Source of the DNA: a virus | Length of the DNA: 56,497 bases | Direction: 5' to 3' (one strand) | Virus record (IMG/VR): IMGVR_UViG_3300024517_000001 | Location: 1 to 56,497 of that record | In this document: positions 41,572-55,974 of the stretch, in pieces | Layout of the letters: each line of letters starts with the position of its first letter | How positions within the stretch are numbered: position 1 is the first letter of the stretch | Program-made: the position numbers and the translations under genes | Notes under the pieces: model-generated | Seen by the model: the letters and a program-made list of their open reading frames with translations, nothing else | What the model was told of the DNA's origin: nothing | The model's database searches: none

Positions 41572-41625
41572 TTAATTAACATACTGTAGAGTACGTAAGT
41601 ACTCCCTCTACAGTATGTTAATTAA
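41572..41625 (-). repeat. Hairpin element H1 of the CGTAAGTACT family
   Basis: Perfect 20-bp stem (41572-41591 with 41606-41625) and a 14-base loop TACGTAAGTACTCC. A 56-base stretch starting at 41572 is identical to H2 at 46893. The right arm includes the last codons and the TAG of the 41608-42090 gene, so part of that protein tail is encoded by the hairpin. Confidence 0.9.
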
Positions 41626-42090
41626 TTCAGCTTCTTGATAAGGTATATGGAAGAATGGTTCTTGCAGATGAGGTTCTCCTATACGAGTGGAGTTCTGTAT
41701 CTTCCCTATGGTAGACTCACCTACCAGATCACCATCCATAAACCAAGCCTTAGAACAATCGGTATTAAAGACTACAAAGATAAGCTCATGATCTTTAAAT
41801 TCTTTCTTCCATTTATTAATTAGTCTTTGCTTCCTCTCAGGTATTCTTACTTCCTTCCAAGAAGAAGGCCAGATATTACTCCATTGATTTTTAATCTCAA
41901 CCTCGAAGAAATAATTCTTACATGATCCATCTACATGCCAAAGTTTGGCAGAGATATCAAAGAAGTAGTCTTCTCTTTGTTCAATATCTGAGTAACCTTG
42001 TTGATATAGGTAGTTACTCATTGCATCCTTAGCTTTCTGATCATTAGCCTTATAGGATTCCTTATCAAACTTTCGATTATTGTGTGGCAT
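41608..42090 (-). CDS. PD-(D/E)XK nuclease-like protein
   Basis: 160 residues. D45 (YFFDISAK) and E63-V-E65-I-K67 (FFEVEIKNQW) form a plausible PD-(D/E)XK active site. After it comes a Trp-rich stretch (WPSSWKEVRIPERKQ) shared with the 44340-44738 protein, its paralogue, which lacks the Lys. The final residues LINIL and the stop are encoded in hairpin H1. Likely a DNA nuclease of the replication module. Confidence 0.6.
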   Translation of the reverse strand: MPHNNRKFDKESYKANDQKAKDAMSNYLYQQGYSDIEQREDYFFDISAKLWHVDGSCKNYFFEVEIKNQWSNIWPSSWKEVRIPERKQRLINKWKKEFKDHELIFVVFNTDCSKAWFMDGDLVGESTIGKIQNSTRIGEPHLQEPFFHIPYQEAELINIL

Positions 42091-42724
42091 TTAATGTATC
42101 TCCTTTAGATAAGATTAGCTTTATAAAATTCCCTAAACAATTTCTACATAACTGTAATCTTTCTTTGTATTGATGACCCATCTCAGTTCTTTTTTTCACA
42201 TTTCTTTTATACTTATTACTTTCAATAAAATCTGATAAGTCAGCTATAGTTCTTCTACTTAAGTTAAACCACTCTCCACTTACATTTACTTCTTCTAAAC
42301 ATTCATGTAATGTATGTTCTAATTCTAAGACAGTATCATTATCTGAAAAAGCAGATGAATATATAATCTCAAGAGGAACCCAAGAACTAGTTTGTAATTG
42401 TTTTAATCTGGATTTAACATCATTGCTTATTCCTATTTTTACAGGGGTACATAATTCTAATCCATCACTAGCTAGTCCTGCAATAAAATAAATAAAAAAT
42501 CTATCTACACCTGTAGGATTGGATGCTTCTTTATTATAAATATATTCAAACTGTGGGTTAAGACTAAGTATCCTTTCTTTAATTTCAGGTCTGTGAAGAA
42601 TCCTGTGTCCTTGATTATATAAAGCTGATACTGAATAACCTGCTGATCTAGCTGCCTCCTTAGCATTAGGATAAGCGACAAAAGCTTGACAAAAGGCTTC
42701 GTATCTGGGTTTAAGATGAAGCAT
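42077..42724 (-). CDS. TerS-like DNA-binding domain fused to GIY-YIG nuclease
   Basis: 215 residues. Residues 1-53 (LKPRYEAFCQAFVAYPNAKE, then AARSAGYSVSALYNQGHRIL) are clearly related to the N-terminus of TerS (31237-31767), with the same NAxEAARxAGY and YNQG motifs. Residues 70-165 carry a T5orf172/MUG113-type GIY-YIG core (FFIYFIAGL; PVKIGISNDVKSRLKQLQTS; ELEHTLHECLEEVNVSGEWF). The C-terminus is basic with two Cys. I infer a homing-like nuclease that took its target-recognition domain from a terminase. The terminus overlaps the next gene by 14 bases. Confidence 0.8.
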   Translation of the reverse strand: MLHLKPRYEAFCQAFVAYPNAKEAARSAGYSVSALYNQGHRILHRPEIKERILSLNPQFEYIYNKEASNPTGVDRFFIYFIAGLASDGLELCTPVKIGISNDVKSRLKQLQTSSWVPLEIIYSSAFSDNDTVLELEHTLHECLEEVNVSGEWFNLSRRTIADLSDFIESNKYKRNVKKRTEMGHQYKERLQLCRNCLGNFIKLILSKGDTLNATQ

Positions 42725-44359
42725 TTAATGTGTTTCCTTCCATGTTGTTCCAATCTTGTACTCACAATCAAGAGGACATTGCATCTCTAATGTCTTTGTT
42801 GTTTCCAGCATAGCATCTTTGGTTATCTGACCAAATCTCTCTGCATCTGTCTTGGCTACCTCAAATTGGTATTCATCGTGGACTGAGGCTACCAGCTTGA
42901 CATCTACTCCTGCCTTTCTAATGCCTTCATCCATATGAACAAGCCATTGCTTACAGACTATAGCTCCTGCTCCCTGTATGAGGGTATTGAGGGACGCATA
43001 GTCTGCCCTTATATGGAGGACTCTTCCATCTAAAGCCTTTATTGTACCTGTCTGTGATGCTTCAATAACATTATCCCTTAGCTTTTTCAAGCGAGGCATG
43101 TTGCGTAGGAAGTTAGTGATTAACTGTTGTCCTCTCTTAGCTCCTGCCCCTACCACCTTACCTATTTTGGAAGGTCCAGCCCCATAAAGAAAGGCATAGA
43201 TGAAAGTTTTTGCTTGATCTCTAGTCTGTAGTCCAGCCATTTTCTGATTGGCAGTATGAACATCACCAGTAAGAACCTCCTTGGTAAACTTGGGGTCATC
43301 CATATAGTGAGCTAGACATCTTAACTCCAGACCACTGGCATCTGTACCTAAAAGAACATGGGTATCAGGATTATCTATAGTCCATAGATCTCTACACTCC
43401 TTACCATAGGGACTGTAGATGGCTGGTACTTGCGCCATGTTAGGACTATGGTGAGCCATCCTGCCTGTTACTGTCCTGAGAGTAAGTACCTTACCTCTAA
43501 CTCTTTCATCCTCCTCACAAGCTTGTATCCAAGCCTTGAGAAGACCTGTTCTCTTCTGAAGAAGGAAGTATCTGCTAAACATCTTAGCTTCTTTCATGTC
43601 CAGCTTATCAAGGATCTCCTCACTCACAATTATATTACCTTTGTCCGTAGTCTTGGTAGGTTTCCAGCCTCTCTTCATAAGCCTGTCAGCTATCTGCTTT
43701 CTGCTGGCTATGTTAAAGGGAATATACTTGGTCTTTGTTTTGAGGACAACCTCAGTAGGCTCAAACATTTCATCAGCCTTACGTTCCAGATCATGTTGTT
43801 CATCCTCAAGCTTGGATAGCAATACCATTGCTTCACGTATATTAAATGCAAACCCATTCTTTTGTTGTTGATCTATAATTGCTCTGATTTTTCTTTCAAG
43901 GTTATACGATCTTGATGAGAACGAACAGCCTTCGATTGATAGTTGATGAGCAAGTTTGCTAGTGAGTGCCGTATCCATCCGACAATACTCCAACATAGCT
44001 GGAGTGTACGTAGTAAAATCATCGCAGTCTCCTTTAGGAAAGTTAAGTCTATCCCCCCATGACTGAAGGGAATGTCCACCATCTCTGATGGGATTAAATA
44101 ACTGAGATTCAATTAAGGTATCTCTTATCTGAGATAACTTAATCTTGGAACCTGTTAGTCTGTTAAGGATGGGAGCATCAAAGCTAATACCATTATGCAT
44201 AATGAATTGATCTATCTGCTTAGACCACTCAGCAAACTGCTGGCATTCTTCTCCTATCCATATCTTTTCTTTATCAGAGTCATAGGATCGAGCTACAATA
44301 CAATGTATTTTACTTGCATTAAGACTATCTGTTTCTATATCAACTATTGCTTGGGTCAT
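42725..44359 (-). CDS. Family A DNA polymerase with 3'-5' exonuclease
   Basis: 544 residues. Exonuclease motifs DIETDS (7-12), HNGISFD (55-61) and YCRMD (125-129) precede the polymerase motifs: A with D340 (GTDASGLELR), B R380-x3-K384-x3-Y388-x3-YG, and C HDE (493-495). It copies the phage genome. Tyr388 is at the position of E. coli Pol I Phe762; T7 gp5 also has Tyr. The protein is short and has no DnaJ-like insert. It starts inside the upstream nuclease-like gene (20-base overlap). Confidence 0.95.
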   Translation of the reverse strand: MTQAIVDIETDSLNASKIHCIVARSYDSDKEKIWIGEECQQFAEWSKQIDQFIMHNGISFDAPILNRLTGSKIKLSQIRDTLIESQLFNPIRDGGHSLQSWGDRLNFPKGDCDDFTTYTPAMLEYCRMDTALTSKLAHQLSIEGCSFSSRSYNLERKIRAIIDQQQKNGFAFNIREAMVLLSKLEDEQHDLERKADEMFEPTEVVLKTKTKYIPFNIASRKQIADRLMKRGWKPTKTTDKGNIIVSEEILDKLDMKEAKMFSRYFLLQKRTGLLKAWIQACEEDERVRGKVLTLRTVTGRMAHHSPNMAQVPAIYSPYGKECRDLWTIDNPDTHVLLGTDASGLELRCLAHYMDDPKFTKEVLTGDVHTANQKMAGLQTRDQAKTFIYAFLYGAGPSKIGKVVGAGAKRGQQLITNFLRNMPRLKKLRDNVIEASQTGTIKALDGRVLHIRADYASLNTLIQGAGAIVCKQWLVHMDEGIRKAGVDVKLVASVHDEYQFEVAKTDAERFGQITKDAMLETTKTLEMQCPLDCEYKIGTTWKETH

Positions 44360-44738
44360 AATTCATATCCACTTGATAAGTAAATTTAAGAGGTATACAA
44401 TAAAAGTTATTTCTTACCTCACTTTCCATGACAATATCTCCTGCTATATGCCATGCTTTCTTTAGATCTTTACGATAGACTATAAAAGTTAAGAGATCTC
44501 TTCGATAATCTTTGTACCATCTATCAACAACATCTTTATTTTTATAGGGTAGTCGTACTTCTTCCCACTTCTCAGGCCATTCATCCTCCCATTCTTCTAT
44601 TACTTCGACCTGATATAAGATCTTGAGATCTCCTCCATTAATACGACACTTAATATTAAACTCTGAAGTATCTGGATCTATTATTATATCAGGAATATGC
44701 GATTCAATCCAGCCAATTGTTTGTTCTCTAGGCTGCAT
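44340..44738 (-). CDS. Paralogue of the 41608-42090 nuclease-like protein, active site altered
   Basis: 132 residues. LYQVEVIEEW (41-50) followed by EDEWPEKWEEVRLP and ending KKAWHIAGDIVMES aligns with the 160-residue protein on the other side of the polymerase gene (WPSSWKEVRIP; SKAWFMDGDLVGES). The Lys of the VEIK motif is replaced by Ile47, so catalysis is probably lost. It may bind DNA or regulate the partner. Overlaps the polymerase start. Confidence 0.6.
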   Translation of the reverse strand: MQPREQTIGWIESHIPDIIIDPDTSEFNIKCRINGGDLKILYQVEVIEEWEDEWPEKWEEVRLPYKNKDVVDRWYKDYRRDLLTFIVYRKDLKKAWHIAGDIVMESEVRNNFYCIPLKFTYQVDMNYDPSNS

Positions 44739-45267
44739 TCTTTTCCTCCGTTATTTTTTTAAAGTAATTACCTACTTGTATGACCTGATCTGGTGTAGCA
44801 TTATTCTTTATTCTATTAGCAAGCATACATATAATTTGTACATTTCCTTTTACATATCCTACTTCAGGAATAATTCTATCTATAGATGGTGAAGCATCAA
44901 TCTGCATTCCTTCTCCTTTTTTAAATTCAATACTAAGGACAGGACACTTATTATCTTCAGGCCATATTTCTTTAATATATTCTTTATCAAGATTAAAAGA
45001 AATATTTTTATTTCTAATCCTACTTTTAGTAACTGAACACAGATGTGCTTCCTTATTTTCTTTTCTGTGTCTTCTTTGTTGTTTTAATAAATCTTCTTTA
45101 TTTTCTTCATAATATTTTTTATAACGTTCTGCTATAGCTTCTTTATTTTTTTCACGATATTTTTTACGACTTTCTGCTATAGCTTCTTTATTTTCTTCAC
45201 AATATTTTTTATAATATTCTGCTATAGCTTCTTTATTTTCTTCAAGATATTTTTTACTATGTGGCAT
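44728..45267 (-). CDS. HNH family homing-type endonuclease with coiled-coil repeats
   Basis: 179 residues from the ATG at 45267 (GGAGG six bases upstream; the ATG at 45270 is an alternative). Five 15-residue repeats of the type KKYxEENKEAIAExx form a charged helix at the N-terminus. The C-terminal part has the HNH-like SPSIDRIIPEVGYVKGNVQI and NRIKNNAT. Repeats would position the nuclease on DNA. It lies between helicase and polymerase genes, a common place for homing endonucleases. Confidence 0.8.
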   Translation of the reverse strand: MPHSKKYLEENKEAIAEYYKKYCEENKEAIAESRKKYREKNKEAIAERYKKYYEENKEDLLKQQRRHRKENKEAHLCSVTKSRIRNKNISFNLDKEYIKEIWPEDNKCPVLSIEFKKGEGMQIDASPSIDRIIPEVGYVKGNVQIICMLANRIKNNATPDQVIQVGNYFKKITEEKNAA

Positions 45268-46873
45268 CATCCTCCTCCATAAAAGGATTATCAACCTGTG
45301 ACATCCTGCCTGTCTCCTTATTATAGTGGAGGTAACAGGCAATACCAGTGTCTCCTGTGTATCTATTCTTGAGTATACGAAGAGTAGTGGTGTTAGCCTC
45401 ATGCTCGTCTTCTGCTTGTTGATTTCTTTCCAAGGCTATAACACTATCAGATAGGTGAGCTATACTAGCTGACCCTCTAAGATGCGACAGGCTGACCTCT
45501 CTGCCATCCTCATGGCCTCTGTCTCCTGCTGGTCTACGTAGGTGAGATACCAGTAAGAGTGCTATCCCTGTCTCTTCTACAAGGGATCTTAACTTGGTCA
45601 TTAGTACATCAATAGACTTTCTTTCATCTCCAAACTCTTCGTTTCCTGATACCAGTATGGAGAGGTGATCCAGAAAGATCCACTTACAGTCCAGAGCTTT
45701 AGCCATATACCTTACTCTATCAAGAATTTCATTGTTAGATATAGAACCAAAGTGATCGAATGCATAGAACCTTTTACTATCAATGGTCTTCTTCTGCCAC
45801 TCCCTAAGTTGCTCAGTAGTATACTGATCCCTTATTTCTTTGATGTATAGTCGAGCATTCGCTTCTACTGACATAAGATTAAAGGCTGTATGTTTTACAT
45901 TTTCTTCCATACAAAGTACACCTATATTATCCAGAGTACTTAACATAATATGATGCATGAGTTCCCTAATGATACTACTCTTACCCATGCCAGCACCACT
46001 GGTAAACGTAATGAGTTCTCCTGTCCTCATGCCATAGGTTTTCTCATTCATCTTAGGCCAAGGATACAGACAGGTTTCATTATAGTTCTCCTCATAGAGG
46101 GACTCCCCAAGGTCTGCAAGATTTATAATACCTGCTGGTGTGTAAGGCTTGGAGTTCCACCATGCCTGAGTAAAGCTTTCACGCCTTCCTTTTTGCAGAT
46201 ACTCATTCGCATCCTTAAATTCAAGAGCCATAATCTTACACTTGTTAGGTTCAAATAACTGGGCTACCTGTTGTGCCGCTTCTTTACCGGGAGCATCGTT
46301 ATCAAAACAGAGGACTACAGTCTCAAACTTGTTAAGATAATTAAAGGCTTGCTTGCAATTCTCTACGGCAGATGCAGCCCCATTCTTAATGGAAACCACA
46401 GGCCATTTGCTACCCATTAATTCATAGGCAGACATAGCATCTACTTCACCTTCACATACTGTGATATACTTACCAGCCTGATTGAATATGTTCTGTCCAA
46501 ATAGACCAGCCATAGAGATGTTACCTTCTGACCAGAACTTTTTAGTCAGAGCATTGCGTACCTTATTAGCTATGTGATTGTTATCTTCATCAAAGTATCT
46601 ATAAATATGATGGGTTACTTTTCCTCCATCAGCTAACTGAACCAAGGTATTAAACCTTTGAACTGTGTCCTTGCTAATGCTTCGGTCAGGGATTGAAGAC
46701 ACCTGTCCAGAGGACTTTAAACTGGAGCTAACTTCTACATTCATGGGAATAACCTCTGCTGTACCATTTGAAAATCTAGTCTTACAACTATAACAATACG
46801 AATGACCGTCATCATATAGATGATGGGCATCACTGGAACTACAACTAGGGCATGGCCCCTTTCGTTTAAGCAT
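45257..46873 (-). CDS. Primase-helicase (T7 gp4 / Twinkle-like)
   Basis: 538 residues from the ATG at 46873, which has AAGGAG five bases upstream. Zinc-binding Cys C8, C11, C27 and C30, then a TOPRIM core (CEGEVDA at 140-146; CFDNDAPGKEA near 189) and a RecA-like helicase core with Walker A SGAGMGKSS (292-300), WIFLDHLSIL (Walker B) and LLLVSHLRRP (H4 loop). It makes primers and unwinds the fork ahead of the polymerase. Hairpin H2 lies just upstream of its start. Confidence 0.95.
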   Translation of the reverse strand: MLKRKGPCPSCSSSDAHHLYDDGHSYCYSCKTRFSNGTAEVIPMNVEVSSSLKSSGQVSSIPDRSISKDTVQRFNTLVQLADGGKVTHHIYRYFDEDNNHIANKVRNALTKKFWSEGNISMAGLFGQNIFNQAGKYITVCEGEVDAMSAYELMGSKWPVVSIKNGAASAVENCKQAFNYLNKFETVVLCFDNDAPGKEAAQQVAQLFEPNKCKIMALEFKDANEYLQKGRRESFTQAWWNSKPYTPAGIINLADLGESLYEENYNETCLYPWPKMNEKTYGMRTGELITFTSGAGMGKSSIIRELMHHIMLSTLDNIGVLCMEENVKHTAFNLMSVEANARLYIKEIRDQYTTEQLREWQKKTIDSKRFYAFDHFGSISNNEILDRVRYMAKALDCKWIFLDHLSILVSGNEEFGDERKSIDVLMTKLRSLVEETGIALLLVSHLRRPAGDRGHEDGREVSLSHLRGSASIAHLSDSVIALERNQQAEDEHEANTTTLRILKNRYTGDTGIACYLHYNKETGRMSQVDNPFMEEDDAT

Positions 46874-46892
46874 CTCCACTCCTTTCAATGAT

Positions 46893-46946
46893 TTAATTAA
46901 CATACTGTAGAGTACGTAAGTACTCCCTCTACAGTATGTTAATTAA
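46893..46946 (-). repeat. Hairpin element H2, identical to H1
   Basis: Perfect 20-bp stem (46893-46912 with 46927-46946) and a 14-base loop TACGTAAGTACTCC. The 56-base stretch from 46893 matches H1 exactly. The TAA of the 46943-47122 gene lies in the right arm. It sits 20 bases before the helicase ATG. Confidence 0.9.
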
Positions 46947-47122
46947 TTTTTGGGTGATCCTCTTTCTTTAATAATTTTATATTCAAGATTAGGATCATAG
47001 CCCAGATGTTTACACAGATTATATCTGTTTTTAATTTCAGCCTGAGCTTCTCTCTTGCTGTTAAAATAATCAACAACAATATCACCGTAGTCTTTTTCCA
47101 GAACTATTTTCCACCTATCCAT
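46943..47122 (-). CDS. Small hypothetical protein
   Basis: 59 residues (MDRWKIVLEKDYGDIVVDYF, then NSKREAQAEIKNRYNLCKHL). The ATG at 47122 overlaps the previous stop by 8 bases. It reads like a small alpha/beta protein with one Cys. The stop codon lies within hairpin H2. Function unknown. Confidence 0.65.
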   Translation of the reverse strand: MDRWKIVLEKDYGDIVVDYFNSKREAQAEIKNRYNLCKHLGYDPNLEYKIIKERGSPKN

Positions 47123-47300
47123 CAGTAAAACTTTCCTTTAATATATTCTGCACAAAGTTTTCTTTGTCTTCCATCACCTCATTAACCTCCTGTTTTGCCA
47201 AGGATTTTGATTCCTTATGAGAGTACCCTTCGTTCCTGTACTGTTTTACTAGATGTTGAAATATATTATTACGTTCTCTTTCCCATAGATTTTTTGTCAT
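47115..47300 (-). CDS. Small helical charged protein
   Basis: 61 residues from the ATG at 47300 (MTKNLWERERNNIFQHLVKQ, then YRNEGYSHKESKSLAKQEVN). Its start overlaps the stop of the frameshifted coiled-coil gene upstream (TAATG). Helical, Lys/Glu-rich, no membrane segment. Function unknown. Confidence 0.6.
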   Translation of the reverse strand: MTKNLWERERNNIFQHLVKQYRNEGYSHKESKSLAKQEVNEVMEDKENFVQNILKESFTDG

Positions 47301-47444
47301 TACTCTACCCAACTTTGGTTTGCTCGTTTATAATTTAACTTAGATAATTCTTTACGTAATTTTTTTATAGTTTCTTCTTTCTCTTCTAGCTGTTGCTTTA
47401 AAGTCTCAATGTTTTTATGAAGGACTTCGTTTGTAGTTTGCATA
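47300..47444 (-). pseudogene. Frameshifted coiled-coil small gene
   Basis: An ATG at 47444 with GAGGAG six bases upstream opens MQTTNEVLHKNIET, then a run of four T (minus strand, near 47400-47403) shifts the frame. If one T is dropped the frame continues as LKQQLEEKEETIKKLRKELS to a TAA that overlaps the next ATG. It would be a 47-residue coiled coil. As it stands the ATG frame stops after 30 codons. Either a real mutation, a sequencing slip, or programmed frameshifting. Confidence 0.55.
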
Positions 47445-47455
47445 GTATACTCCTC

Positions 47456-47926
47456 TTATTCCCTCATGTCAATGTAGAATAGGTGTTTACCTATTGATCC
47501 TAAAGCTTTAAAGTTTGGATCAGATGCCCAGCTTGGGGTTACATAGTTGGCATGATAGTGGGTAGCACCAACAGTTTGCTTTACTTGTATACCTTTGAGT
47601 GCCATCTCTGCAACATTAATAGATTTAATTAATCCTGATATATCTGTAAACCTTTCTGGTCTACCGTCACACCAATAACTGAAGTGACACTTATCCCTAA
47701 CAGGATTGTCTTTCCAATACTTACCTTGATGTACTACCTTGCATATCGTATTAGGATAGTTGCTGCTTTCTTTTCTTGTTAGTATTACATTAGCTACACT
47801 AAGCATACCTAGCAAAGTCTCTGACCTAGCCTCATGATAGACAGCCTCAACTAGACAATCAAAGTTGTCTGCTTTAGCTGAAGCTGCCATCATTAAAGTT
47901 ATTAAAGTTATTAATATTAATTTCAT
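47456..47926 (-). CDS. Secreted cell wall hydrolase, SleB type
   Basis: 156 residues. A signal peptide (MKLILITLITLMMAASAKAD) precedes a Hydrolase_2/SleB domain: DCLVEAVYHEARSETLLGML with E27 and the HE pair at 31-32, then YPNTICKVVH and CHFSYWCDG with Cys and Tyr. By family it cleaves peptidoglycan glycan strands. The signal peptide would export it through Sec without a holin. It is the second lytic enzyme besides the M15 peptidase. The ATG shares a base with the next upstream stop. Confidence 0.85.
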   Translation of the reverse strand: MKLILITLITLMMAASAKADNFDCLVEAVYHEARSETLLGMLSVANVILTRKESSNYPNTICKVVHQGKYWKDNPVRDKCHFSYWCDGRPERFTDISGLIKSINVAEMALKGIQVKQTVGATHYHANYVTPSWASDPNFKALGSIGKHLFYIDMRE

Positions 47927-48114
47927 TAGTGAAGCCTCACTATATGAATGTCTGAATTAAACCAGAGATCCTTTCCGAAACCCAGTTGCATTAGAAATTG
48001 AGAGGCTTCTATTTTACTATTAAATATCTGAACACCTTCGCCTTCTTGATCAGGTAATATATCCATTGATCTTAGATCATCTGGATCATCTACGTGAACA
48101 ATAATATAAGACAT
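47926..48114 (-). CDS. Small acidic hypothetical protein
   Basis: 62 residues (IIVHVDDPDDLRSMDILPDQ; KIEASQFLMQLGFGKDLWFN). Alpha/beta pattern, no membrane segment. AGGAG ribosome site. The stop overlaps the SleB start. Function unknown. Confidence 0.65.
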   Translation of the reverse strand: MSYIIVHVDDPDDLRSMDILPDQEGEGVQIFNSKIEASQFLMQLGFGKDLWFNSDIHIVRLH

Positions 48115-48123
48115 TCTTTTCTC

Positions 48124-48159: not shown

Positions 48160-48168
48160 TTGCTCCTC

Positions 48169-49131: not shown

Positions 49132-49140
49132 TGTTTTCTC

Positions 49141-49550: not shown

Positions 49551-50470
49551 TACGCTGCTAACGCCTCCCATTCTGGAGACGCTAACATCTTCCTCACCTT
49601 ATCTTCTCTGTTAACCTTCACATTATGAGGTGAACTTCCACGCTTACTATCAGGATGGGAAGACCAGTAGGTAGCTGCATTGTATGCAGTCCAGAGGGTT
49701 CCTTCCTCTCTCTTGCCATAGGTTTCATAGTGTCCTCGTCCATGTATGTGACGGTTCTCTTCATCGAAGATCTTCATGAGGTTAGATAGCATTACCTTAT
49801 TAGCTACCTTCTTCTTACTGACATTATCAGTACGTTGAGCCAGTGTTTTAGTGAAGAGATTGATAGCCTCATACCTTTTTAATGGGGTATCATACCAGTT
49901 ACGCATCTCTTCAAGACCTTTGCCAGAGATAAACTCACCAGCATTCCTAATCTTGGTAGCAAATCCAGAGATGTTAAAGTTCTTGGTATGCCTACCATAG
50001 ACATAGGCCAGCTTATCACCAGATACTAAGGTATTATAACAGAAGGATCTCCATAGTCCCATCATACCATTGTTAGCCCATGTCCTGTTATGGGATGTCC
50101 TGAAGACAAACTCAGGTATGATAGTATCTTTACCACCCATACGCATAGCATGGGCAGGGAACTTAGCTCTTAACTCCAGCTTGGCTCCATAATCATAGAC
50201 ATTAGTCGTAAAGTCAGCGTCAGTCATGTCTATCTCAGCCCTTTTAAGGGCTTCTTCTACACCATCTACGATCTCTGCATACTGGACAGGGAAGTACTCA
50301 TCAGAGACTATACCTATAGGTTCCTTGGTATCTGTACGCCTTAGACCTACTCCAATATGTGAGGGTATTTTCTCTGCTTTGGTGTAAGGAACTAAGTCTT
50401 CACCTGCTTGCCACTCATTAATAAGTGGAAATTTTTCTACCAAGAAATCTATCTTGCTATGATCAAACAT
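49550..50470 (-). CDS. DUF932 family protein
   Basis: 306 residues from the ATG at 50470 with GGAG six bases upstream. The central motifs match the DUF932/plasmid-phage family: GVGLRRTDTKEPIGIVSDEY, FRTSHNRTWANNGMMGLWRS and NTLVSGDKLAYVYGRHTKNF, followed by TAYNAATYWSSH. The family is frequent in phages and plasmids; its biochemical role is not settled. Expressed among early small genes. Confidence 0.85.
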   Translation of the reverse strand: MFDHSKIDFLVEKFPLINEWQAGEDLVPYTKAEKIPSHIGVGLRRTDTKEPIGIVSDEYFPVQYAEIVDGVEEALKRAEIDMTDADFTTNVYDYGAKLELRAKFPAHAMRMGGKDTIIPEFVFRTSHNRTWANNGMMGLWRSFCYNTLVSGDKLAYVYGRHTKNFNISGFATKIRNAGEFISGKGLEEMRNWYDTPLKRYEAINLFTKTLAQRTDNVSKKKVANKVMLSNLMKIFDEENRHIHGRGHYETYGKREEGTLWTAYNAATYWSSHPDSKRGSSPHNVKVNREDKVRKMLASPEWEALAA

Positions 50471-50687
50471 AATTATCTCCATAGTTATTGTCATGGTACT
50501 GTTCGTACCCCTCCTCTAATGACCTAAGCTCCTCAGTGAGCCAGCCATTGAGTTCCTCTATGTCAACTCTATCTACATTAGAGCCACACATCTCTATGAA
50601 TTCCTCAACCATAGGACGACACCAGCCATCCTTCTCTGAGTTAAGGAACTTAACTATATCATTAGAAGTTTTAAATGTAGGTAACAT
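50463..50687 (-). CDS. Small acidic hypothetical protein
   Basis: 74 residues (MLPTFKTSNDIVKFLNSEKD, then GWCRPMVEEFIEMCGSNVDR; acidic tail). Overlaps the DUF932 gene by 8 bases. AGGGG-type ribosome site. Function unknown. Confidence 0.65.
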   Translation of the reverse strand: MLPTFKTSNDIVKFLNSEKDGWCRPMVEEFIEMCGSNVDRVDIEELNGWLTEELRSLEEGYEQYHDNNYGDNYV

Positions 50688-50691
50688 TTAC

Positions 50692-50889
50692 TTACCCCTC
50701 CTCATGTTCAACTACGTTGTCATTAAAGTTCTTTATAATTTTATCATTACTGAATAAAGTTATTTGATCTTCAATTACCTTACCTTGATGACAGCTACTA
50801 ACTACTATCCTTGTAGACATACCAAGATCATCTCCCAAATCTCTGGAAGTTATGGTCACTTCTTGTACCCTATGTATGGAACTATCCAT
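50692..50889 (-). CDS. Small hypothetical protein
   Basis: 65 residues (VQEVTITSRDLGDDLGMSTR, then IVVSSCHQGKVIEDQITLFS). Predicted alpha/beta. AGGAGAAAGAG ribosome site. Hairpin H3 lies 17 bases upstream of its start. Function unknown. Confidence 0.65.
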   Translation of the reverse strand: MDSSIHRVQEVTITSRDLGDDLGMSTRIVVSSCHQGKVIEDQITLFSNDKIIKNFNDNVVEHEEG

Positions 50890-50905
50890 TCTCTTTCTCC
50901 TATAT

Positions 50906-50958
50906 TTAATGAGTATCTAGTAGAGTTCGTTAGTACTCACTCTACTAGATCTCATTAA
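50906..50958 (-). repeat. Hairpin element H3
   Basis: Stem of 19-20 bp (50906-50925 with 50940-50958) with a one-base bulge; loop TTCGTTAGTACTCA. The stem sequence differs from H1/H2 but still pairs. The right arm encodes the last residues and stop of the 50945-51145 gene. Confidence 0.85.
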
Positions 50959-51145
50959 TATTACAGTATCCCTTAACGATATAGTCTCGTCCAAATATAT
51001 ATCCATCAGGGCCATACTTAGCCTGAGCCTTCTTCAGGATATCAGACATAGCCCATCCCTTAACTGGACTATCTTTACCTTCCTGCATTAGTTCTTTAAC
51101 AAAATTAACTATGTCACGTTGGTAAATTATCTGGGAAGCATCCAT
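50945..51145 (-). CDS. Small hypothetical protein
   Basis: 66 residues (MDASQIIYQRDIVNFVKELM, then QEGKDSPVKGWAMSDILKKA). Helical with a basic-hydrophobic pattern. Its last residues NEI and stop fall in hairpin H3. Overlaps the ArfA-like gene by 19 bases; AAGGAG lies upstream. Function unknown. Confidence 0.6.
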   Translation of the reverse strand: MDASQIIYQRDIVNFVKELMQEGKDSPVKGWAMSDILKKAQAKYGPDGYIFGRDYIVKGYCNINEI

Positions 51146-51261
51146 TTTGCAGTCTCCTTATGTTTAAGTTTCCTATTATAACTGTTCTTACCTTTCTTGG
51201 CAAGCACAACTTTGTGCCTTAGCATCCTAAGACACTTCCAATACGGGTTTCTTTTCTTCAT
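51127..51261 (-). CDS. ArfA-like basic small protein
   Basis: 44 residues beginning MKKRNPYWKCLRMLRHKVVL, then AKKGKNSYNRKLKHKETAKW. The segment RHKVVLAKKGKNSYNRKLKH matches the core of ArfA-type ribosome rescue factors (RxRVxxxKKGKGSYxRKxKH in E. coli). If real it would bind stalled ribosomes. Too short to be sure; a ribosomal or RNA-binding mimic is also possible. It overlaps both neighbours (35 and 19 bases). Confidence 0.55.
   Translation of the reverse strand: MKKRNPYWKCLRMLRHKVVLAKKGKNSYNRKLKHKETAKWMLPR
51175..51203 (-). promoter_or_regulatory. Putative sigma70 promoter
   Basis: On the minus strand TTGCCA (51198-51203), 17 bases, TATAAT (51175-51180). It lies inside the ArfA-like gene and would drive the 51145 gene and those after it. 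Chance is possible in AT-rich DNA, but both boxes and the spacing are good. Confidence 0.55.
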
Positions 51262-51382
51262 CTTCCTTAACCTTTTCATTGTTAATGAGGTGGACAACCT
51301 GAGACATCAGCCATCCTATCAAGAACTCAGGGTGCTGACTAGGCAGTGTGTCCATTTCTGCCTGTAATTCTTCCAACGTCAA
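51227..51382 (-). CDS. Small acidic hypothetical protein (TTG start)
   Basis: 51 residues from a TTG at 51382 overlapping the previous TGA (TTGA). MTLEELQAEMDTLPSQHPEF then LIGWLMSQVVHLINNEKVKE: a helical protein with acidic end. No better start is visible. Function unknown. Confidence 0.5.
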   Translation of the reverse strand: MTLEELQAEMDTLPSQHPEFLIGWLMSQVVHLINNEKVKEDEEKKPVLEVS

Positions 51383-51609
51383 TGCAATACTCTCTTATCT
51401 TCAGTATGCTGAACGCTTTGAATTGCCACATTAAACATCCCAATAGTACTTTCTTTGCCAATAGTTTCTACATATAACTTAAGGCAAGCACTTAACAAAG
51501 CACCTGATACCATCAGGATATTAGATTTACTTTCATCAGGAGGTGAAGTCTCTCTGATAAGTTCCCATAACTTATTCTGAAACTCAAGAAGTTCTTCTTC
51601 TTCAGTCAT
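51379..51609 (-). CDS. Small hypothetical protein
   Basis: 76 residues, acidic N-terminus (MTEEEELLEFQNKLWELIRE) and a hydrophobic middle (NILMVSGALLSACLKLYVET). Its ATG overlaps the stop of the coiled-coil gene upstream (ATGA). Function unknown. Confidence 0.65.
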   Translation of the reverse strand: MTEEEELLEFQNKLWELIRETSPPDESKSNILMVSGALLSACLKLYVETIGKESTIGMFNVAIQSVQHTEDKRVLH

Positions 51610-51746
51610 GGTTTTTTCCTTAGCATATTGAGAAGCTTCTCATACTGCATGAGCTTTGCCTTTAATTTTTTAATTCTAATGTGACTATTTTGCAACTGTT
51701 CTTGCAGTTCCCTCACATTTCTTTTAAGGATTTCTGTCTGGCTCAT
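51606..51746 (-). CDS. Small coiled-coil protein
   Basis: 46 residues (MSQTEILKRNVRELQEQLQN, then SHIRIKKLKAKLMQYEKLLN). Clear heptad pattern, basic. Start and stop both overlap neighbours as ATGA, so it sits in a tightly coupled operon. Similar in kind to the frameshifted coil at 47300-47444. Confidence 0.6.
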   Translation of the reverse strand: MSQTEILKRNVRELQEQLQNSHIRIKKLKAKLMQYEKLLNMLRKKP

Positions 51747-51997
51747 AGCTTATGTAACTCCTCTTTCAATTCCTCCAGTTGATTTATACTTTCATCACAC
51801 AAGTAACGTATAGCCTTTACTTTGTCTATACATAGGTTTACTTTAGCTTTTGCTTCAGGAATTTTTCCCATGATATAGGCATCATCGATAGGCATGTGGA
51901 TTTTCTTTAAACTATTCTTAGTATGCCCAAAGACTTCATCTAATTCTGGGATAGGTTCTCCTGTTTGTACAAAACCTGTTGCTTTTTTATCACTCAT
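51743..51997 (-). CDS. Small hypothetical protein
   Basis: 84 residues (VQTGEPIPELDEVFGHTKNS, then LKKIHMPIDDAYIMGKIPEA), helical C-terminus with two Cys. Overlaps the next gene by ATGA. Function unknown. Confidence 0.65.
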   Translation of the reverse strand: MSDKKATGFVQTGEPIPELDEVFGHTKNSLKKIHMPIDDAYIMGKIPEAKAKVNLCIDKVKAIRYLCDESINQLEELKEELHKL

Positions 51998-52209
51998 GCT
52001 ACCCTCTCAATCTTTAGAGCATCTGGATAGTCTTCCAAAAGATCAGCAGTATTTTCATATAACTCTGATAGTTCTGCAAAGGAAGTTGTTCCCTTACTAT
52101 CACATACCTGACATTCATATAGTCTGCTACTTGATAGGTCTGTATCTACTGCAAAATGTCCCTCACCATCACAGTTAGGACACGTAATCGTAATGTTATA
52201 GCGTGTCAT
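51994..52209 (-). CDS. DnaJ-like zinc-knuckle protein
   Basis: 71 residues from the ATG at 52209 (GGAGG five bases upstream; the ATG at 52221 is at the ribosome site itself). TCPNCDGEGHF and ECQVCDSKGTT are two CxxCxxxG knuckles as in DnaJ zinc domains. An acidic helix follows. It could act as a zinc-binding adaptor; function unknown. Confidence 0.7.
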   Translation of the reverse strand: MTRYNITITCPNCDGEGHFAVDTDLSSSRLYECQVCDSKGTTSFAELSELYENTADLLEDYPDALKIERVA

Positions 52210-52294
52210 AGAATCCTCCATAGTATAGGAAAACTAAACATAACATAGCAATGATGGTAACTCCCATCATCAGTTTAAATATTTCATTAAGCAT
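52196..52294 (-). CDS. 32-residue membrane peptide
   Basis: MLNEIFKLMMGVTIIAMLCL then VFLYYGGFYDTL: one membrane helix. GGAGGAG lies upstream inside the previous gene and it overlaps the zinc-knuckle gene by 14 bases. Short but well placed. Confidence 0.45.
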   Translation of the reverse strand: MLNEIFKLMMGVTIIAMLCLVFLYYGGFYDTL

Positions 52295-52430
52295 TCTCCA
52301 TCTCCTCCTCTGCTAAAGACATAGCTTCTAGCTCTGCTCTGTCTACATCATTATATATTGCCAGCATTTTAGTTAAATGCTTTTCATATATGTCCTCAAG
52401 TTGAGCCTGTATTGGTGAAGGTAAACTCAT
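52287..52430 (-). CDS. Small acidic hypothetical protein
   Basis: 47 residues (MSLPSPIQAQLEDIYEKHLT, then KMLAIYNDVDRAELEAMSLA and EEEMENA). GGAG lies eight bases before the ATG. First gene after hairpin H4. Helical; function unknown. Confidence 0.6.
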   Translation of the reverse strand: MSLPSPIQAQLEDIYEKHLTKMLAIYNDVDRAELEAMSLAEEEMENA

Positions 52431-52445
52431 AACATTTCTCCATAT

Positions 52446-52500
52446 TTAATTACGTTCTCTATCTAGTACGTAAGTACTAACTAGATAGAGAACTAATTAA
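52446..52500 (-). repeat. Hairpin element H4
   Basis: Stem 52446-52466 with 52481-52500 (20 bp, one-base bulge); loop TACGTAAGTACTAA. The stem (TCTCTATCTAG) is different from H1-H3 yet pairs fully. It lies between the glycosylase-like gene and the 52287-52430 gene. Confidence 0.9.
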
Positions 52501-52525
52501 GTTTAGTATAACATAAGTAAATTAA

Positions 52526-53107
52526 TTAATCAACTATATAGTCTTTATGTAGTCGACTAACATGCTGACCATTCTTGTATTTGTTGGGGTACTTCTCAGC
52601 TAGTAGGTCACACCAGCTATTCCATAGGAATTCACAACCACCTAGATCTTCACAAAGTTTTATATATAACTTTGCTTTGCCAAGGGCTGTATCATATTTA
52701 ACTTTGCTTATCTTGAAGGCTGATGCTGATAGTCCAAACCTTCTCAGGTTATGGACATCAAGACAACCAACCTTACCAAGGCATAGCTGTAATACAAAGC
52801 CAGCTTTGACTATACCAATCCCATTAATACTAGCTACTGCTAGTAATTTCTCAGCCATCGGAAGCTTACGGCTATAGATAGCCTTATGTAAGTCTTCCTT
52901 ATTGGCTAGGATGTAGTCCCAACCAGCCCTCTTCGATCCAAATAAGTATTTGGATTTTAATCCATTACTTTTTAGGTCAATTATCTGACGGCCTACCGTC
53001 TCCCATTGCTGTTGTATAGACAACAGAACCATAGCTATAATCCATTGGGTATTATCTGGGGACTTTCTTCCCCATCTTCCAATAGATTTTTGGTGCGTAG
53101 AAAACAT
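52526..53107 (-). CDS. Helix-hairpin-helix DNA glycosylase-like protein
   Basis: 193 residues from the ATG at 53107, with AAGGAG a few bases upstream. VASINGIGIVKAGFVLQLCL is a helix-hairpin-helix, and GCLDVHN provides an Asp (D117) at the place used for catalysis in HhH-GPD glycosylases. A role in base repair or DNA binding is inferred. Several Cys in the C-terminus (LCEDLGGCEFLWNSWC) could bind metal. Confidence 0.55.
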   Translation of the reverse strand: MFSTHQKSIGRWGRKSPDNTQWIIAMVLLSIQQQWETVGRQIIDLKSNGLKSKYLFGSKRAGWDYILANKEDLHKAIYSRKLPMAEKLLAVASINGIGIVKAGFVLQLCLGKVGCLDVHNLRRFGLSASAFKISKVKYDTALGKAKLYIKLCEDLGGCEFLWNSWCDLLAEKYPNKYKNGQHVSRLHKDYIVD

Positions 53108-53121
53108 TTCCTTCTCCTTAA

Positions 53122-53397
53122 TTAACAAGGATCTCCTAACTTTGGTTGGTTCTCAACAAAGTTAAGAAGCTCTTTTAGATCTTGAATATTTTCTTCAAGA
53201 TCTGGATGGTTCCTGTTTTGGATACCTAAGTTTCTCAACAGCCATCTAATATTAGATGTAATCCATAAGTTCCTTCTATGCTTTGGAACATCGAAGCTCA
53301 TGTCTGCAAGAAAGAAATCATGAATACCATTGTCAGGTTCGTTATCCAATTTGATGTTTACACAATCTGGATTGGTTGGTAATTTTATTTCACACAT
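53122..53397 (-). CDS. Hypothetical protein
   Basis: 91 residues from the ATG at 53397 (AAGG eight bases upstream). MCEIKLPTNPDCVNIKLDNE then PDNGIHDFFLADMSFDVPKH and helical RRNLWITSNIRWLLRNLGIQ. Follows a terminator in the leader, so probably starts from read-through or its own promoter. Function unknown. Confidence 0.65.
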   Translation of the reverse strand: MCEIKLPTNPDCVNIKLDNEPDNGIHDFFLADMSFDVPKHRRNLWITSNIRWLLRNLGIQNRNHPDLEENIQDLKELLNFVENQPKLGDPC

Positions 53398-53410
53398 AGT
53401 CTTTACCTTG

Positions 53411-53470
53411 AAAAAAATAGGGAGATACAACGTAATCCCCATTAGATGGGATTGTAACAGGGTATCTCCC
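53411..53470 (-). terminator. Rho-independent terminator with nested hairpin
   Basis: On the minus strand GGGAGATAC (rc of 53462-53470) pairs with GTATCTCCC (rc of 53420-53428), with an inner AATCCC/GGGATT pair (53434-53439 with 53448-53453), followed by TATTTTTTT. It lies 10 bases after the 53480-53677 stop. Nested stem and long T-run make it a strong terminator. Confidence 0.8.
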
Positions 53471-53479
53471 CAAGTTTAC

Positions 53480-53677
53480 CTAACGGTTAACATTAAAGAT
53501 TGGCCTAATACTAGAGCCAAACTTATTAAAAGTTTTGCCAGTAAACACATAGAAGCTACGCTTTCTAAAGTGCAGACCAACTGAGCTATCGCCAACGCTT
53601 ACGCCATAGCGATTTTCTACTGTCCTAGCTGGTTTAGAAAACCAACCTGTCTTATTGAGGATTTGAAATGAGGTCAT
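53480..53677 (-). CDS. Small basic hypothetical protein
   Basis: 65 residues from the ATG at 53677, with GGAG six bases upstream (ATGs further up are in the leader). MTSFQILNKTGWFSKPARTV then ENRYGVSVGDSSVGLHFRKR: basic and beta-rich. Its leader resembles that of 54834-55034. Function unknown. Confidence 0.65.
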   Translation of the reverse strand: MTSFQILNKTGWFSKPARTVENRYGVSVGDSSVGLHFRKRSFYVFTGKTFNKFGSSIRPIFNVNR

Positions 53678-53722
53678 TTCATACTCCGTTAGTGGTGTCA
53701 GCATCAAACCCTGCCAACTTGG
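53678..53722 (-). promoter_or_regulatory. Conserved leader, copy A (CCAAGTTGG)
   Basis: Between H5 and the ATG at 53677. On the minus strand it reads CCAAGTTGGCAGGGTTTGAT, then GCTGACAC, then ACGGAGT. The leader at 55035-55079 reads CCAAGTTGGTCAGGCTTTGA, then TGATCGACAC, then ACGGAGT. Only these two genes have it. Confidence 0.6.
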
Positions 53723-53728
53723 GGTACT

Positions 53729-53780
53729 TTAATTAACTCCCTCTAGTTACGTAAACACTTAACTAGAGGGATTTAATTAA
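53729..53780 (-). repeat. Hairpin element H5
   Basis: Stem 53729-53748 with 53761-53780, 20 bp with one mismatch; loop ACGTAAACACTT. It lies between the 53788-53961 stop and the leader of the 53480-53677 gene. Confidence 0.85.
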
Positions 53781-53787
53781 GAAGATC

Positions 53788-53961
53788 TTAGTATACATAT
53801 CCTCGCCAAGATTTCACATGATCATTTATGGCTTTGGATATAGAAGCTTTCAAATCTTCCTTTTCGTTAACTGTTAAATCGTCACGAAATTCAACAGCTT
53901 TGAGCTTGTCAATTCGATCCTGTAGTGGAACACTAGAATAAGGTTTCCATGTTCTATTCAT
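53788..53961 (-). CDS. Small charged hypothetical protein
   Basis: 57 residues (MNRTWKPYSSVPLQDRIDKL, then KAVEFRDDLTVNEKEDLKAS). AAGGAG six bases before the ATG. Helical, possibly DNA-binding. Function unknown. Confidence 0.65.
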   Translation of the reverse strand: MNRTWKPYSSVPLQDRIDKLKAVEFRDDLTVNEKEDLKASISKAINDHVKSWRGYVY

Positions 53962-53972
53962 TGGCAACTCCT

Positions 53973-54236
53973 TTAATTATTTAAGTCACGCATCAGGTAT
54001 TCACCTGATTTTATTTTAGCTTGCGTTTCTTTCTTAGTCTCACTGAGAAATCTATTTCTATATTTCCCTGTAGTTTGTGAGTAATCCCACTTGTTTTTAT
54101 CAAGAAAGACTTGGCCTCTGATAATCACTACAATGAGAGTATCATAGGATTGAAACCATTTCTTGTCACCATCAGTTACTACAAACTGATTAACTACTGG
54201 TTGCCCAGTATTTCCTATCATGTTGGAAACATACAA
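53973..54236 (-). CDS. Hypothetical phage protein, DUF8033-like
   Basis: 87 residues. The stretch KWFQSYDTLIVVIIRGQVFL, then DKNKWDYSQTTGKYRNRFLS recalls the family with FQSYxTxI...xVxLDxxxWDYSxTTxKYxxxFL in marine phages. AAGGAG is upstream. No catalytic motif. Function unknown. Confidence 0.7.
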   Translation of the reverse strand: MYVSNMIGNTGQPVVNQFVVTDGDKKWFQSYDTLIVVIIRGQVFLDKNKWDYSQTTGKYRNRFLSETKKETQAKIKSGEYLMRDLNN

Positions 54237-54252
54237 TGTCTTTCTCCTTTCT

Positions 54253-54305
54253 TTAATTAACCCTCTGTAGTTACGTAAGTACTTAAACTACAGAGGTTTA
54301 ATTAA
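54253..54305 (-). repeat. Hairpin element H6
   Basis: Stem 54253-54272 with 54286-54305, 20 bp with one mismatch; loop ACGTAAGTACTTA. Stem core CCTCTGTAGTT. It lies just upstream of the 53973-54236 start. Confidence 0.9.
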
Positions 54306-54308
54306 TAT

Positions 54309-54587
54309 TTAAAAAGCCCACCATTCTTTGATGCACTTATCACTGGTTTTAATATGACTAACGTCAACAACTTGCCAGTGGCCTACTTCCTCATCTTTAC
54401 AATCTGCTGTAAAGATACCGTCAACATCTTCCTTTACAAAGCTATGACCAGCAAAGAAACTCATTGCTTTGATAGCTTCTATAGCTTCTTCTTTTGTAAT
54501 GAAAAAGGTTCCTATTCTTTTCTCGAATTCCCAATTATCAATCTCGTTAGGATCATCGAAAAAAGAACAATGCACTACCATAAACAT
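54309..54587 (-). CDS. Hypothetical protein
   Basis: 92 residues (FMVVHCSFFDDPNEIDNWEF; EEAIEAIKAMSFFAGHSFVK; ending WWAF). AAAGGAG ribosome site. Acidic alpha/beta. Function unknown. The next hairpin (H6) begins 4 bases beyond its stop. Confidence 0.65.
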   Translation of the reverse strand: MFMVVHCSFFDDPNEIDNWEFEKRIGTFFITKEEAIEAIKAMSFFAGHSFVKEDVDGIFTADCKDEEVGHWQVVDVSHIKTSDKCIKEWWAF

Positions 54588-54676
54588 AGTCTTTCTCCTT
54601 TCTTTAATCTATACCAAGTGAAGTTAATAAACTCCACTTGGCAGCCTAAATTCTCCCAACACCGCATAGCTTTCAT
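54575..54676 (-). CDS. 33-residue basic small ORF
   Basis: MKAMRCWENLGCQVEFINFT then WYRLKKGERLCLW. It overlaps the 54309-54587 start by 13 bases and contains a short hairpin (54614-54641). The ribosome site is weak. Possibly real but could be a leader region instead. Confidence 0.3.
   Translation of the reverse strand: MKAMRCWENLGCQVEFINFTWYRLKKGERLCLW
54614..54641 (-). repeat. Short hairpin without the family loop
   Basis: CCAAGTGAAGTT (54614-54625) pairs with AACTCCACTTGG (54630-54641), one A-C position that is G-U on the minus-strand RNA. The loop is only AATA. It is in the position a family hairpin would occupy, 27 bases before a gene start. Confidence 0.5.
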
Positions 54677-54745
54677 CTCTTTAGGCAGAGCCTACTCACA
54701 TTTTTTTTGGTGTTTACTGTTGTCACATTGGACAATCTCCTTTAC

Positions 54746-54797
54746 TTAATTACTAAGTATTAGTTACGTAAATACTTAACTAATACTTAGTAATTAA
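54746..54797 (-). repeat. Hairpin element H7
   Basis: Perfect 20-bp stem (54746-54765 with 54778-54797), arm TACTAAGTATTAGTT, loop ACGTAAATACTT. The stem sequence is wholly different from H6 and H8 on either side. Confidence 0.9.
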
Positions 54798-54833
54798 AGT
54801 GAGCAGTTTAATGACTTGCTCAGGTCAGCCTAC

Positions 54834-55034
54834 TTAGGCTGCTTTCCGTGAGGTTTCTACACCTTCAGGGACTGCATCAAGGTTCTTAATGACCTTGAAA
54901 GCCTGTACTGTGTTACCCTCTTTGAGGGCATGCAGTACTGCTACTGGAATACCAGCATCAGCTTTGTCTTGGAAACCATCTTCTTTGATGGTCTGCCATT
55001 TATTTGCTTTCGTCAAGAACTGAAATGTTTTCAT
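54834..55034 (-). CDS. Small Lys/Ala-rich protein
   Basis: 66 residues from the ATG at 55034 with GGAG seven bases upstream. MKTFQFLTKANKWQTIKEDG then FQDKADAGIPVAVLHALKEG: helical. Leader shared with 53480-53677. Function unknown. Confidence 0.65.
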   Translation of the reverse strand: MKTFQFLTKANKWQTIKEDGFQDKADAGIPVAVLHALKEGNTVQAFKVIKNLDAVPEGVETSRKAA

Positions 55035-55079
55035 AAGAAAACTCCGTAATGTGTCGATCATCAAAGCCTGACCAACTTG
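55035..55079 (-). promoter_or_regulatory. Conserved leader, copy B (CCAAGTTGG)
   Basis: On the minus strand CCAAGTTGGTCAGGCTTTGA, then TGATCGACAC and ACGGAGT leading to the ATG at 55034. Sister of 53678-53722. The ends of each leader carry upstream ATGs (ATGATGC and ATGATCG) in frame with the gene. Confidence 0.6.
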
Positions 55080-55086
55080 GCTATAT

Positions 55087-55138
55087 TTAATTAACCCTCT
55101 GTAGTTTCGTAAGTACTTAACTACAGAGGTTTAATTAA
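55087..55138 (-). repeat. Hairpin element H8
   Basis: Stem 55087-55106 with 55119-55138, 20 bp with one mismatch; loop TCGTAAGTACTT. The stem is the same as H6, but the loop differs by one base. Confidence 0.9.
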
Positions 55139-55144
55139 CTTCAA

Positions 55145-55321
55145 TTAAGAAGGAAACGTGTACACTGTAGCCTCTGGATTAAGAGCAAAGAACTCAGAAG
55201 CTTCAGCGAGTGCTAAAGCACCGTATGCAGCTTCAAGATCACCAGAAGCTTCATGAGAGAGAGCATCAGCAAAAAACTTATCAGCATATTCAGTGTATTC
55301 AGTAGTCGTCAATAAAACCAT
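55145..55321 (-). CDS. Small Ala-rich helical protein
   Basis: 58 residues from the ATG at 55321 (TGGAGG five bases upstream). MVLLTTTEYTEYADKFFADA then LSHEASGDLEAAYGALALAE: Ala- and Glu-rich helices. Function unknown; no membrane segment. Confidence 0.65.
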   Translation of the reverse strand: MVLLTTTEYTEYADKFFADALSHEASGDLEAAYGALALAEASEFFALNPEATVYTFPS

Positions 55322-55335
55322 CGACACCTCCAAAG

Positions 55336-55388
55336 TTAATTAACCCTTGGTAGTTACGTAAGTACTTAAACTACCAAGGTTTAATTAA
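55336..55388 (-). repeat. Hairpin element H9
   Basis: Stem 55336-55355 with 55369-55388, 20 bp with one mismatch; loop ACGTAAGTACTTA. Stem CCTTGGTAGTT differs from H6/H8 by compensated changes (CTCTG versus CTTGG, with the matching changes in the other arm). Confidence 0.9.
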
Positions 55389-55400
55389 ACTCAATTAAGA

Positions 55401-55568
55401 TTAAAGAAAAGCAGTTTCAACATCGAGTGATGTCTTAAAAGTCTCAATCCATTCTCCTTCAGAGTTATGGATTTCAAAGCCTTGTCCAGTTACTGACGTA
55501 GTAACTGTGAATTGATCATTACCATGAACAAAATCGATCATGGTTTGCAAAGCAAGTTCGTCAGTCAT
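55401..55568 (-). CDS. Small acidic hypothetical protein
   Basis: 55 residues (MTDELALQTMIDFVHGNDQF, then TVTTSVTGQGFEIHNSEGEW). The ATG overlaps the upstream stop (ATGA) and GGAG is at -8. Function unknown. Confidence 0.65.
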   Translation of the reverse strand: MTDELALQTMIDFVHGNDQFTVTTSVTGQGFEIHNSEGEWIETFKTSLDVETAFL

Positions 55569-55750
55569 GACATCTCCTTTATTGTTACGATTAGCAGGAG
55601 TATAACAAATACTCCTACTAAAGCAAAGATAAAACCTACACCAAGCATTATTACTTGGTGTTCACCAAAAAAGAATGGAAACAACAACCATTCCAGAGAG
55701 ACAACCCAGTAAGCTACTACTGGGATCATAAACGAGAGGAAAATTCTCAT
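55565..55750 (-). CDS. Two-helix membrane protein
   Basis: 61 residues with two membrane segments (FMIPVVAYWVVSLEWLLFPF; VIMLGVGFIFALVGVFVILL). The ATG overlaps the upstream stop. Likely early membrane protein, maybe for superinfection exclusion; inferred from position only. Confidence 0.65.
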   Translation of the reverse strand: MRIFLSFMIPVVAYWVVSLEWLLFPFFFGEHQVIMLGVGFIFALVGVFVILLLIVTIKEMS

Positions 55751-55896
55751 GACACTACCTCAATTCTCTCTTCGAGAATTTCTTCTCCTCTTGCCAAACC
55801 AATTTGCTCTATGGCTTGAACTCTTGTTGCAGCCCATTCATAGACATAATCAACTTCGACACCAAACTGAATTGGAATGCGATATTTCTCTTTCAT
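55747..55896 (-). CDS. First gene of minus arm, small helical protein
   Basis: 49 residues (MKEKYRIPIQFGVEVDYVYE, then WAATRVQAIEQIGLARGEEI). TGGAG is eight bases before the ATG. It is the first gene read after the non-coding junction and hairpin H10. Function unknown. Confidence 0.65.
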   Translation of the reverse strand: MKEKYRIPIQFGVEVDYVYEWAATRVQAIEQIGLARGEEILEERIEVVS

Positions 55897-55920
55897 AGCC
55901 TTAGCTCCAAAAAAAGGTTA

Positions 55921-55974
55921 TCAGGTAACTCTCTGTAGTTACGTAAAGTACTTAAACTACAGAGAGCTACCTGA
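55921..55974 (-). repeat. Hairpin element H10
   Basis: Stem 55921-55940 with 55955-55974 (20 bp; the one imperfect pair is G-U on the minus-strand RNA); loop ACGTAAAGTACTTA with one extra base. Lies upstream of the first minus-strand gene. Followed on the minus strand by a run of seven T, six bases below the stem. Confidence 0.85.

Follow-up and report, generated by a model that had tools for sequence, protein, structure and literature searches.

The early mRNA of phage T7 is cut at five RNase III sites (PMC4858673). The promoter/stem-loop cassettes (PeSLs) of T4-type phages, as outlined in PMC4503421, combine an early promoter with a terminator-like stem-loop. In cluster K mycobacteriophages, inverted repeats of approximately 17 bp, the start-associated sequences (SAS) and their extended forms (ESAS), lie just upstream of the translation starts of non-structural genes (PMC3203893, PMC11373665). 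Described here are the intergenic hairpins of IMG/VR virus record IMGVR_UViG_3300024517_000001, whose full length of 56,497 bases is the window analysed. They belong to a structured RNA family of uncultured marine phages which is new, well supported and outside Rfam, no match at the gathering threshold being obtained with the window and six relatives.

Like the T7 sites, the hairpins number about ten, stand in intergenic positions of the early and replication region immediately ahead of ribosome sites, contain about two turns of duplex with an irregularity, and appear to function at the RNA level on the transcribed strand. When the T7 RNase III regions (R0.3-R18.5) were folded at the presumed site positions, they displayed a lower stem, an internal loop and an upper stem just before gene starts, the same plan as here. 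The T7 sites differ in having other sequences without an apical motif of the present kind, and in belonging to a phage with its own RNA polymerase; the covariance model of the present family (R2, see below) finds nothing in T7. Like PeSLs, the hairpins are repeated intergenic stem-loops at the borders of shuffled small early genes. They differ from PeSLs in having no embedded promoter and no U-tract, but covarying stems and a structured apical motif, so that a PeSL-type identity is not shown. Like ESAS and SAS, they are repeated, gene-linked and present in clade-specific variants (PMC3203893, PMC11373665). However, ESAS have conserved arms, a variable spacer and a SigA-like promoter inside, whereas here the arms vary, the apical part is kept and there is no internal promoter. 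The edge-variable-loop-variable-edge layout is also that of the tandem interspaced guide RNA (TIGR) arrays (PMC12045711); in contrast to these, the present units are dispersed and not tandem, their arms are mutually complementary, and each stands before a gene. A TIGR-Tas system was rejected because the Nop domain (PF01798) is absent, while the control was detected in four archaea.

The initial annotation had listed ten hairpins, and all ten are present, all in the minus arm, together with an eleventh, shorter member (loop GAAGUUCUUACUGAACUU). They are as follows, with the open reading frames (ORFs), Shine-Dalgarno (SD) sequences and counterparts in relatives that mark some of them.

41572..41625, minus strand: hairpin 1, at the 3' end of ORF 41608-42090; a sigma70-like promoter (41567-41539) lies downstream of it
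46893..46946, minus strand: hairpin 2, with the same sequence as hairpin 1; 8 nt separate it from the SD of the primase/helicase gene (start 46874)
50906..50958, minus strand: hairpin 3
52446..52500, minus strand: hairpin 4, whose counterpart in L009 precedes a different gene (C12)
53729..53780, minus strand: hairpin 5, with a leader of about 41 nt before the SD
54253..54305, minus strand: hairpin 6
54746..54797, minus strand: hairpin 7; the same hairpin in L088 adjoins a tRNA-like gene and precedes a different ORF
55087..55138, minus strand: hairpin 8, with a leader of about 41 nt before gene C2
55336..55388, minus strand: hairpin 9; the same hairpin in L009 precedes a different gene
55921..55974, minus strand: hairpin 10, in which TCAGGTA replaces TTAATTAA as the outer arm and pairing is retained
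56231..56271, minus strand: hairpin 11, in an untranslated leader, with its counterpart at L088:1633-1672

On the transcript strand, each hairpin has approximately 20 bp: 6-9 AU-rich pairs make up the lower stem and about 10 pairs the upper stem, which is capped by the apical motif. The lower-stem arm occurs in the versions TTAATTAA, CTAATTAA, CTAGTTA and TCAGGTA, and 60 of 71 arm pairs have a mismatch or bulge somewhere within pairs 6-11. Eight stem versions were counted in the ten hairpins, as had been claimed, with hairpins 1 and 2 alike and the arms common to 54253 and 55087. The loop core CGTAAGTACT, which had been described as shared, is exact in six of the ten; there is a single-base deviation in 50906 and 54746, a two-base deviation in 53729 and an additional A in 55921. 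The elements are well above chance: a sequence-blind scan of the window recovered 8 hairpins against a mean of 0.07 and a maximum of 1 in 30 Markov controls, and the loop motif occurs 9 times with at most one mismatch, compared to 2.4 in shuffled sequences.

The apical motif is A-GU-(ACUU)-AC-G in most members, with the general form A-GU-NNNN-AC-G. Other classes, as read from the sequences (including the class-2 members L065:1762 and L052:809), are A-AC-(AUA)-GU-G, GA-AU-(3-4 nt)-AU-GA in three members, and GU/GC in one. The two inner apical pairs are thus maintained through compensation. Accordingly, the 'conserved loop' of the initial annotation is not plainly conserved, but is a small structured motif which is kept or altered by compensatory changes, with AC/GU or AU/AU in relatives.

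Relatives were obtained through searches with the primase, with loop patterns and with protein C2 (see below), and 78 distinct elements were collected from the window and these relatives. The covariance model R2, built from 22 members, was used for all model searches. In the 22-sequence alignment, which like the others mixes paralogues and orthologues from mostly partial contigs, both sides change in 17 of the 18 pairs, while 94.6% of the cells remain paired. This level of covariation was reached by none of 500 shuffles, and sliding the partner by 1-3 columns destroyed the signal. The proposal that the pairing is what is kept is therefore strongly supported.

The pairing is kept in a manner that distinguishes the strands. 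Among the imperfect pairs on the transcript strand, G·U occurs 15 times and A·C once (p = 0.0005), and among the sense-strand mismatches A·G and G·A together occur 22 times and C·T and T·C twice; both counts include related sequences, so that the p-values are optimistic, although the G·U cases span several lineages. Because double-stranded or cruciform DNA treats the two strands alike, such an excess of G·U over A·C on one strand indicates that the element, as judged from its sequences, is maintained as RNA and not as DNA. The hairpin matches are also oriented in the sense of the genes.

The R2 matches in the window are confined to 41570-55976. Of the two closest isolates, HTVC115P gave no match with R2, as was also the case for T7, while the scores in HTVC103P (E of 4 and above) did not rise above chance level. 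A host-derived or cellular element was rejected: none of 25 pattern matches in GTDB had the extended stem, and the hairpin family therefore looks phage-specific. Its carriers are a group of uncultured marine phages. The closest isolate by primase is the Pelagibacter phage HTVC115P (48% identity), the gene layout of which matches the window. The plus arm of the window carries virion genes (terminase large subunit, portal, ejection and structural proteins), and the minus arm encodes ribonucleotide reductase, a Cas4-type exonuclease, a gp2.5-like single-stranded DNA-binding protein (SSB), a family A DNA polymerase, an endonuclease VII-like protein, a primase/helicase and many small ORFs.

With respect to the genes, an SD and start codon lie within 30 nt downstream in 46 of 64 cases, compared to 13% at random sense positions and 3% at antisense ones. 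In about 25 of the 64, the 5' arm contains the stop codon of the preceding ORF; in L064, for example, the CTAA of the hairpin provides the stop codon of the upstream gene. Within the window, the statement that most hairpins are just upstream of a ribosome site holds for seven of the ten. It does not hold for 53729 and 55087, where the leaders come to about 40 nt before the SD, or for 41572, which precedes the promoter.

From these properties and the likeness to T7, it is about an even call that the hairpins are intercistronic processing or insulation sites of the early mRNA, similar to the T7 RNase III sites and possibly read by C2. A single-subunit RNA polymerase (PF00940) was not found in the window or in relatives G001-G003, while the T7 positive control was detected; therefore, the early arm is probably transcribed by the host RNA polymerase. 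A phage-encoded RNase III was looked for and is absent. The host polymerase would thus produce long early messages in which the hairpins serve as processing or insulation sites. Cleavage by a host double-strand RNase, for instance RNase III, would be expected close to the defect in mid-stem; the upper hairpin would then stay with the upstream message as its 3' end, and a short leader would precede the next SD. The arm (TTAATTAA or CTAATTAA) supplies a stop codon to the upstream gene. The apical motif may, more tentatively, be read by a phage factor, for which C2 is the best candidate. Of the proposal that these are RNA-processing or 5'-end-protecting elements, the RNA part and the place between stop codon and ribosome site stand; the processing itself we infer.

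Several points weigh against processing, in addition to the relatedness of the sequences behind the mismatch counts. Bacterial RNase III is not known to need a conserved loop, so that this enzyme by itself does not account for the apical motif, and the fact that the motif is kept suggests a reader beyond RNase III. The promoter that follows hairpin 1 places this hairpin outside the 5' untranslated region of the message begun there. Moreover, the hairpins are absent from many close relatives (e.g., from L067, unlike L064), and are therefore not essential.

The main rival to processing is a regulon without cleavage, in which the hairpins would be operators for C2 or a host RNA-binding protein that controls the translation or stability of the following genes, with C2 regulating itself through its own hairpin and long leader. 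This reading is possible, though clearly below an even chance. The protein and a second small ORF are located as follows.

54837..55034, minus strand: C2, a 66-aa protein family, the candidate trans-acting partner
53480..53707, minus strand: C4, a small ORF following hairpin 5, with a start ATG internal to the ORF and a leader that resembles that of C2

All hairpin-bearing contigs that extend over the place of C2 contain it, and no hairpin-free contig does; the hairpin-bearing contigs without C2 are short or start past its usual place. It is the only ORF family present in all six hairpin-bearing records (the window, G001, G002, G003, G006 and G009) and in none of the three others (G004, G005 and G007). 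Among primase-selected contigs with at least 7.5 kb upstream, C2 is present in 6/6 distinct hairpin-bearing contigs and in 0/9 hairpin-free ones (Fisher p = 2 × 10-4), some of the latter being near relatives of each other, which weakens the contrast. When IMG/VR was searched by C2 alone, all 17 loci found carried hairpins, and seven of the contigs were new to the sample.

The leader of C2 is unusually long: in most lineages it comprises a hairpin and then 40-60 nt up to the SD. The C2 leader hairpins of L102, L108, L109 and L178 contain a conserved 5-nt bulge, ACTTA (TCTTA in L096), between the outer and inner stems. The bulge is similar to the UACUUA of the apical motif and is possibly an autoregulatory site. 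The co-occurrence and these leader features, together with an apical motif that is kept or compensated, favour the regulon. On the other hand, although C2 is predicted to fold as beta-beta-alpha-beta-beta (mean confidence, pLDDT, 79), it has no recognisable domain, and a fold search of PDB and BFVD gave no significant match, so that RNA binding by C2 is a guess put forward as hypothesis only. C2 also lies inside the hairpin region and may be a hitch-hiking cassette.

It had also been suggested that the hairpins are recombination sites that shuffle small gene cassettes. The differences in gene content between relatives indeed fall at hairpins: compared to the window, the right end has two extra cassettes in L088 and one in L086, and hairpin 9 precedes another gene in L009. 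Gene C12 is preceded by hairpins of three different sequences in L009, L052 and L016. A gene ending in TTTGGAGA is followed by a hairpin and C2 in L064, but runs directly into another gene in L049, and an empty site is seen at the primase of L079, which is without the hairpin carried by that of L041. L064 and L067 share 98.9% identity across a 4.5-kb stretch with identical primases, but the hairpin region of L064, 4-6 kb long, has been exchanged for other sequence in L067. In these near-identical phages (L064:2697-7164 and L067:1055-7164), the early small-gene region has been swapped whole, hairpin-bearing for hairpin-free. On the primase tree, from which the window primase was left out and in which the near relative L009 stands in for it, the hairpin trait is patchy, with five changes. 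L088 also contains a tRNA-like gene (3755-3845), absent from the window, the 3' end of which adjoins a family hairpin.

As read from such comparisons, hairpin, SD and ORF form a module that is acquired, lost and linked to new upstream genes, and the hairpin constitutes its 5' edge. It is nevertheless unlikely that the hairpins exist for this purpose as DNA-level sites acting by cruciform extrusion or homology, for which the endonuclease VII-like protein encoded in the window (44728-45402) could provide the cutting activity. The ratios of 15:1 and 22:2 on one strand are unexpected if the element is maintained as DNA, the orientation follows the genes, and the stems differ between copies, which lowers homology. 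The shuffling claim thus survives in that the hairpins mark module edges, a real consequence of the element, while maintenance at the RNA level lowers the probability of a site that serves DNA recombination alone.

Still more improbable is that the hairpins are promoters with an inverted repeat (ESAS-like), intrinsic terminators, or promoter-terminator cassettes of the PeSL kind. The genome position is alike, and a strong sigma70-like promoter follows one hairpin. This promoter (41539-41567, minus strand; TTGACT-17-TATAAT with TG before the -10) lies between hairpin 1, which it directly follows, and the gp2.5-like SSB gene, and the L095 counterpart of hairpin 1 likewise precedes a sigma70-like promoter. 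In contrast, no -35/-10 pair is seen inside the element, and a promoter scan of the minus arm gave 46 matches, fewer than the 59.5 in shuffled sequences; embedded sigma70 promoters were therefore rejected. Intrinsic terminators were rejected for lack of a U-tract, a T-run of at least 5 being present in 3 of the 78 elements and in none of the other 75. Stem sequences are also free to vary. Promoters for a phage RNA polymerase were rejected in view of the PF00940 result.

That the hairpins are kissing-loop or dimerisation elements pairing through self-complementary loops is hardly credible and largely refuted, because, although AAGUACUU is self-complementary in several window copies, the palindrome AAGTACTT is broken in hairpins 5 (53729) and 7 (54746) and absent from the other loop classes.

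Three further features of the window were observed. A 793-aa protein (33538-35919, minus strand) contains an MptE-like (6-hydroxymethylpterin diphosphokinase-like) domain, which is unusual for a phage. Within the endonuclease VII-like gene, a unit of approximately 60 bases is repeated at 45057-45270. The right end of the record (56460-56497) carries tandem GTACTTACACAG repeats.

With regard to the biology of these phages, the joint between modules combines a stop codon with a putatively insulating hairpin and with room for the ribosome site that follows, so that genes can be exchanged while expression is preserved. It is conceivable, although the opposite is considerably more probable, that the family forms a two-part system, in which dispersed covarying hairpins with a shared apical code at the 5' edges of early modules are read by the co-inherited C2 protein of about 66 aa. 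If so, a gene acquired behind a hairpin would immediately be insulated by a stop codon and come under a single post-transcriptional control that extends across the phage. The strict co-occurrence of the hairpins and C2 bears on how phages co-regulate their fast-changing host-takeover genes.

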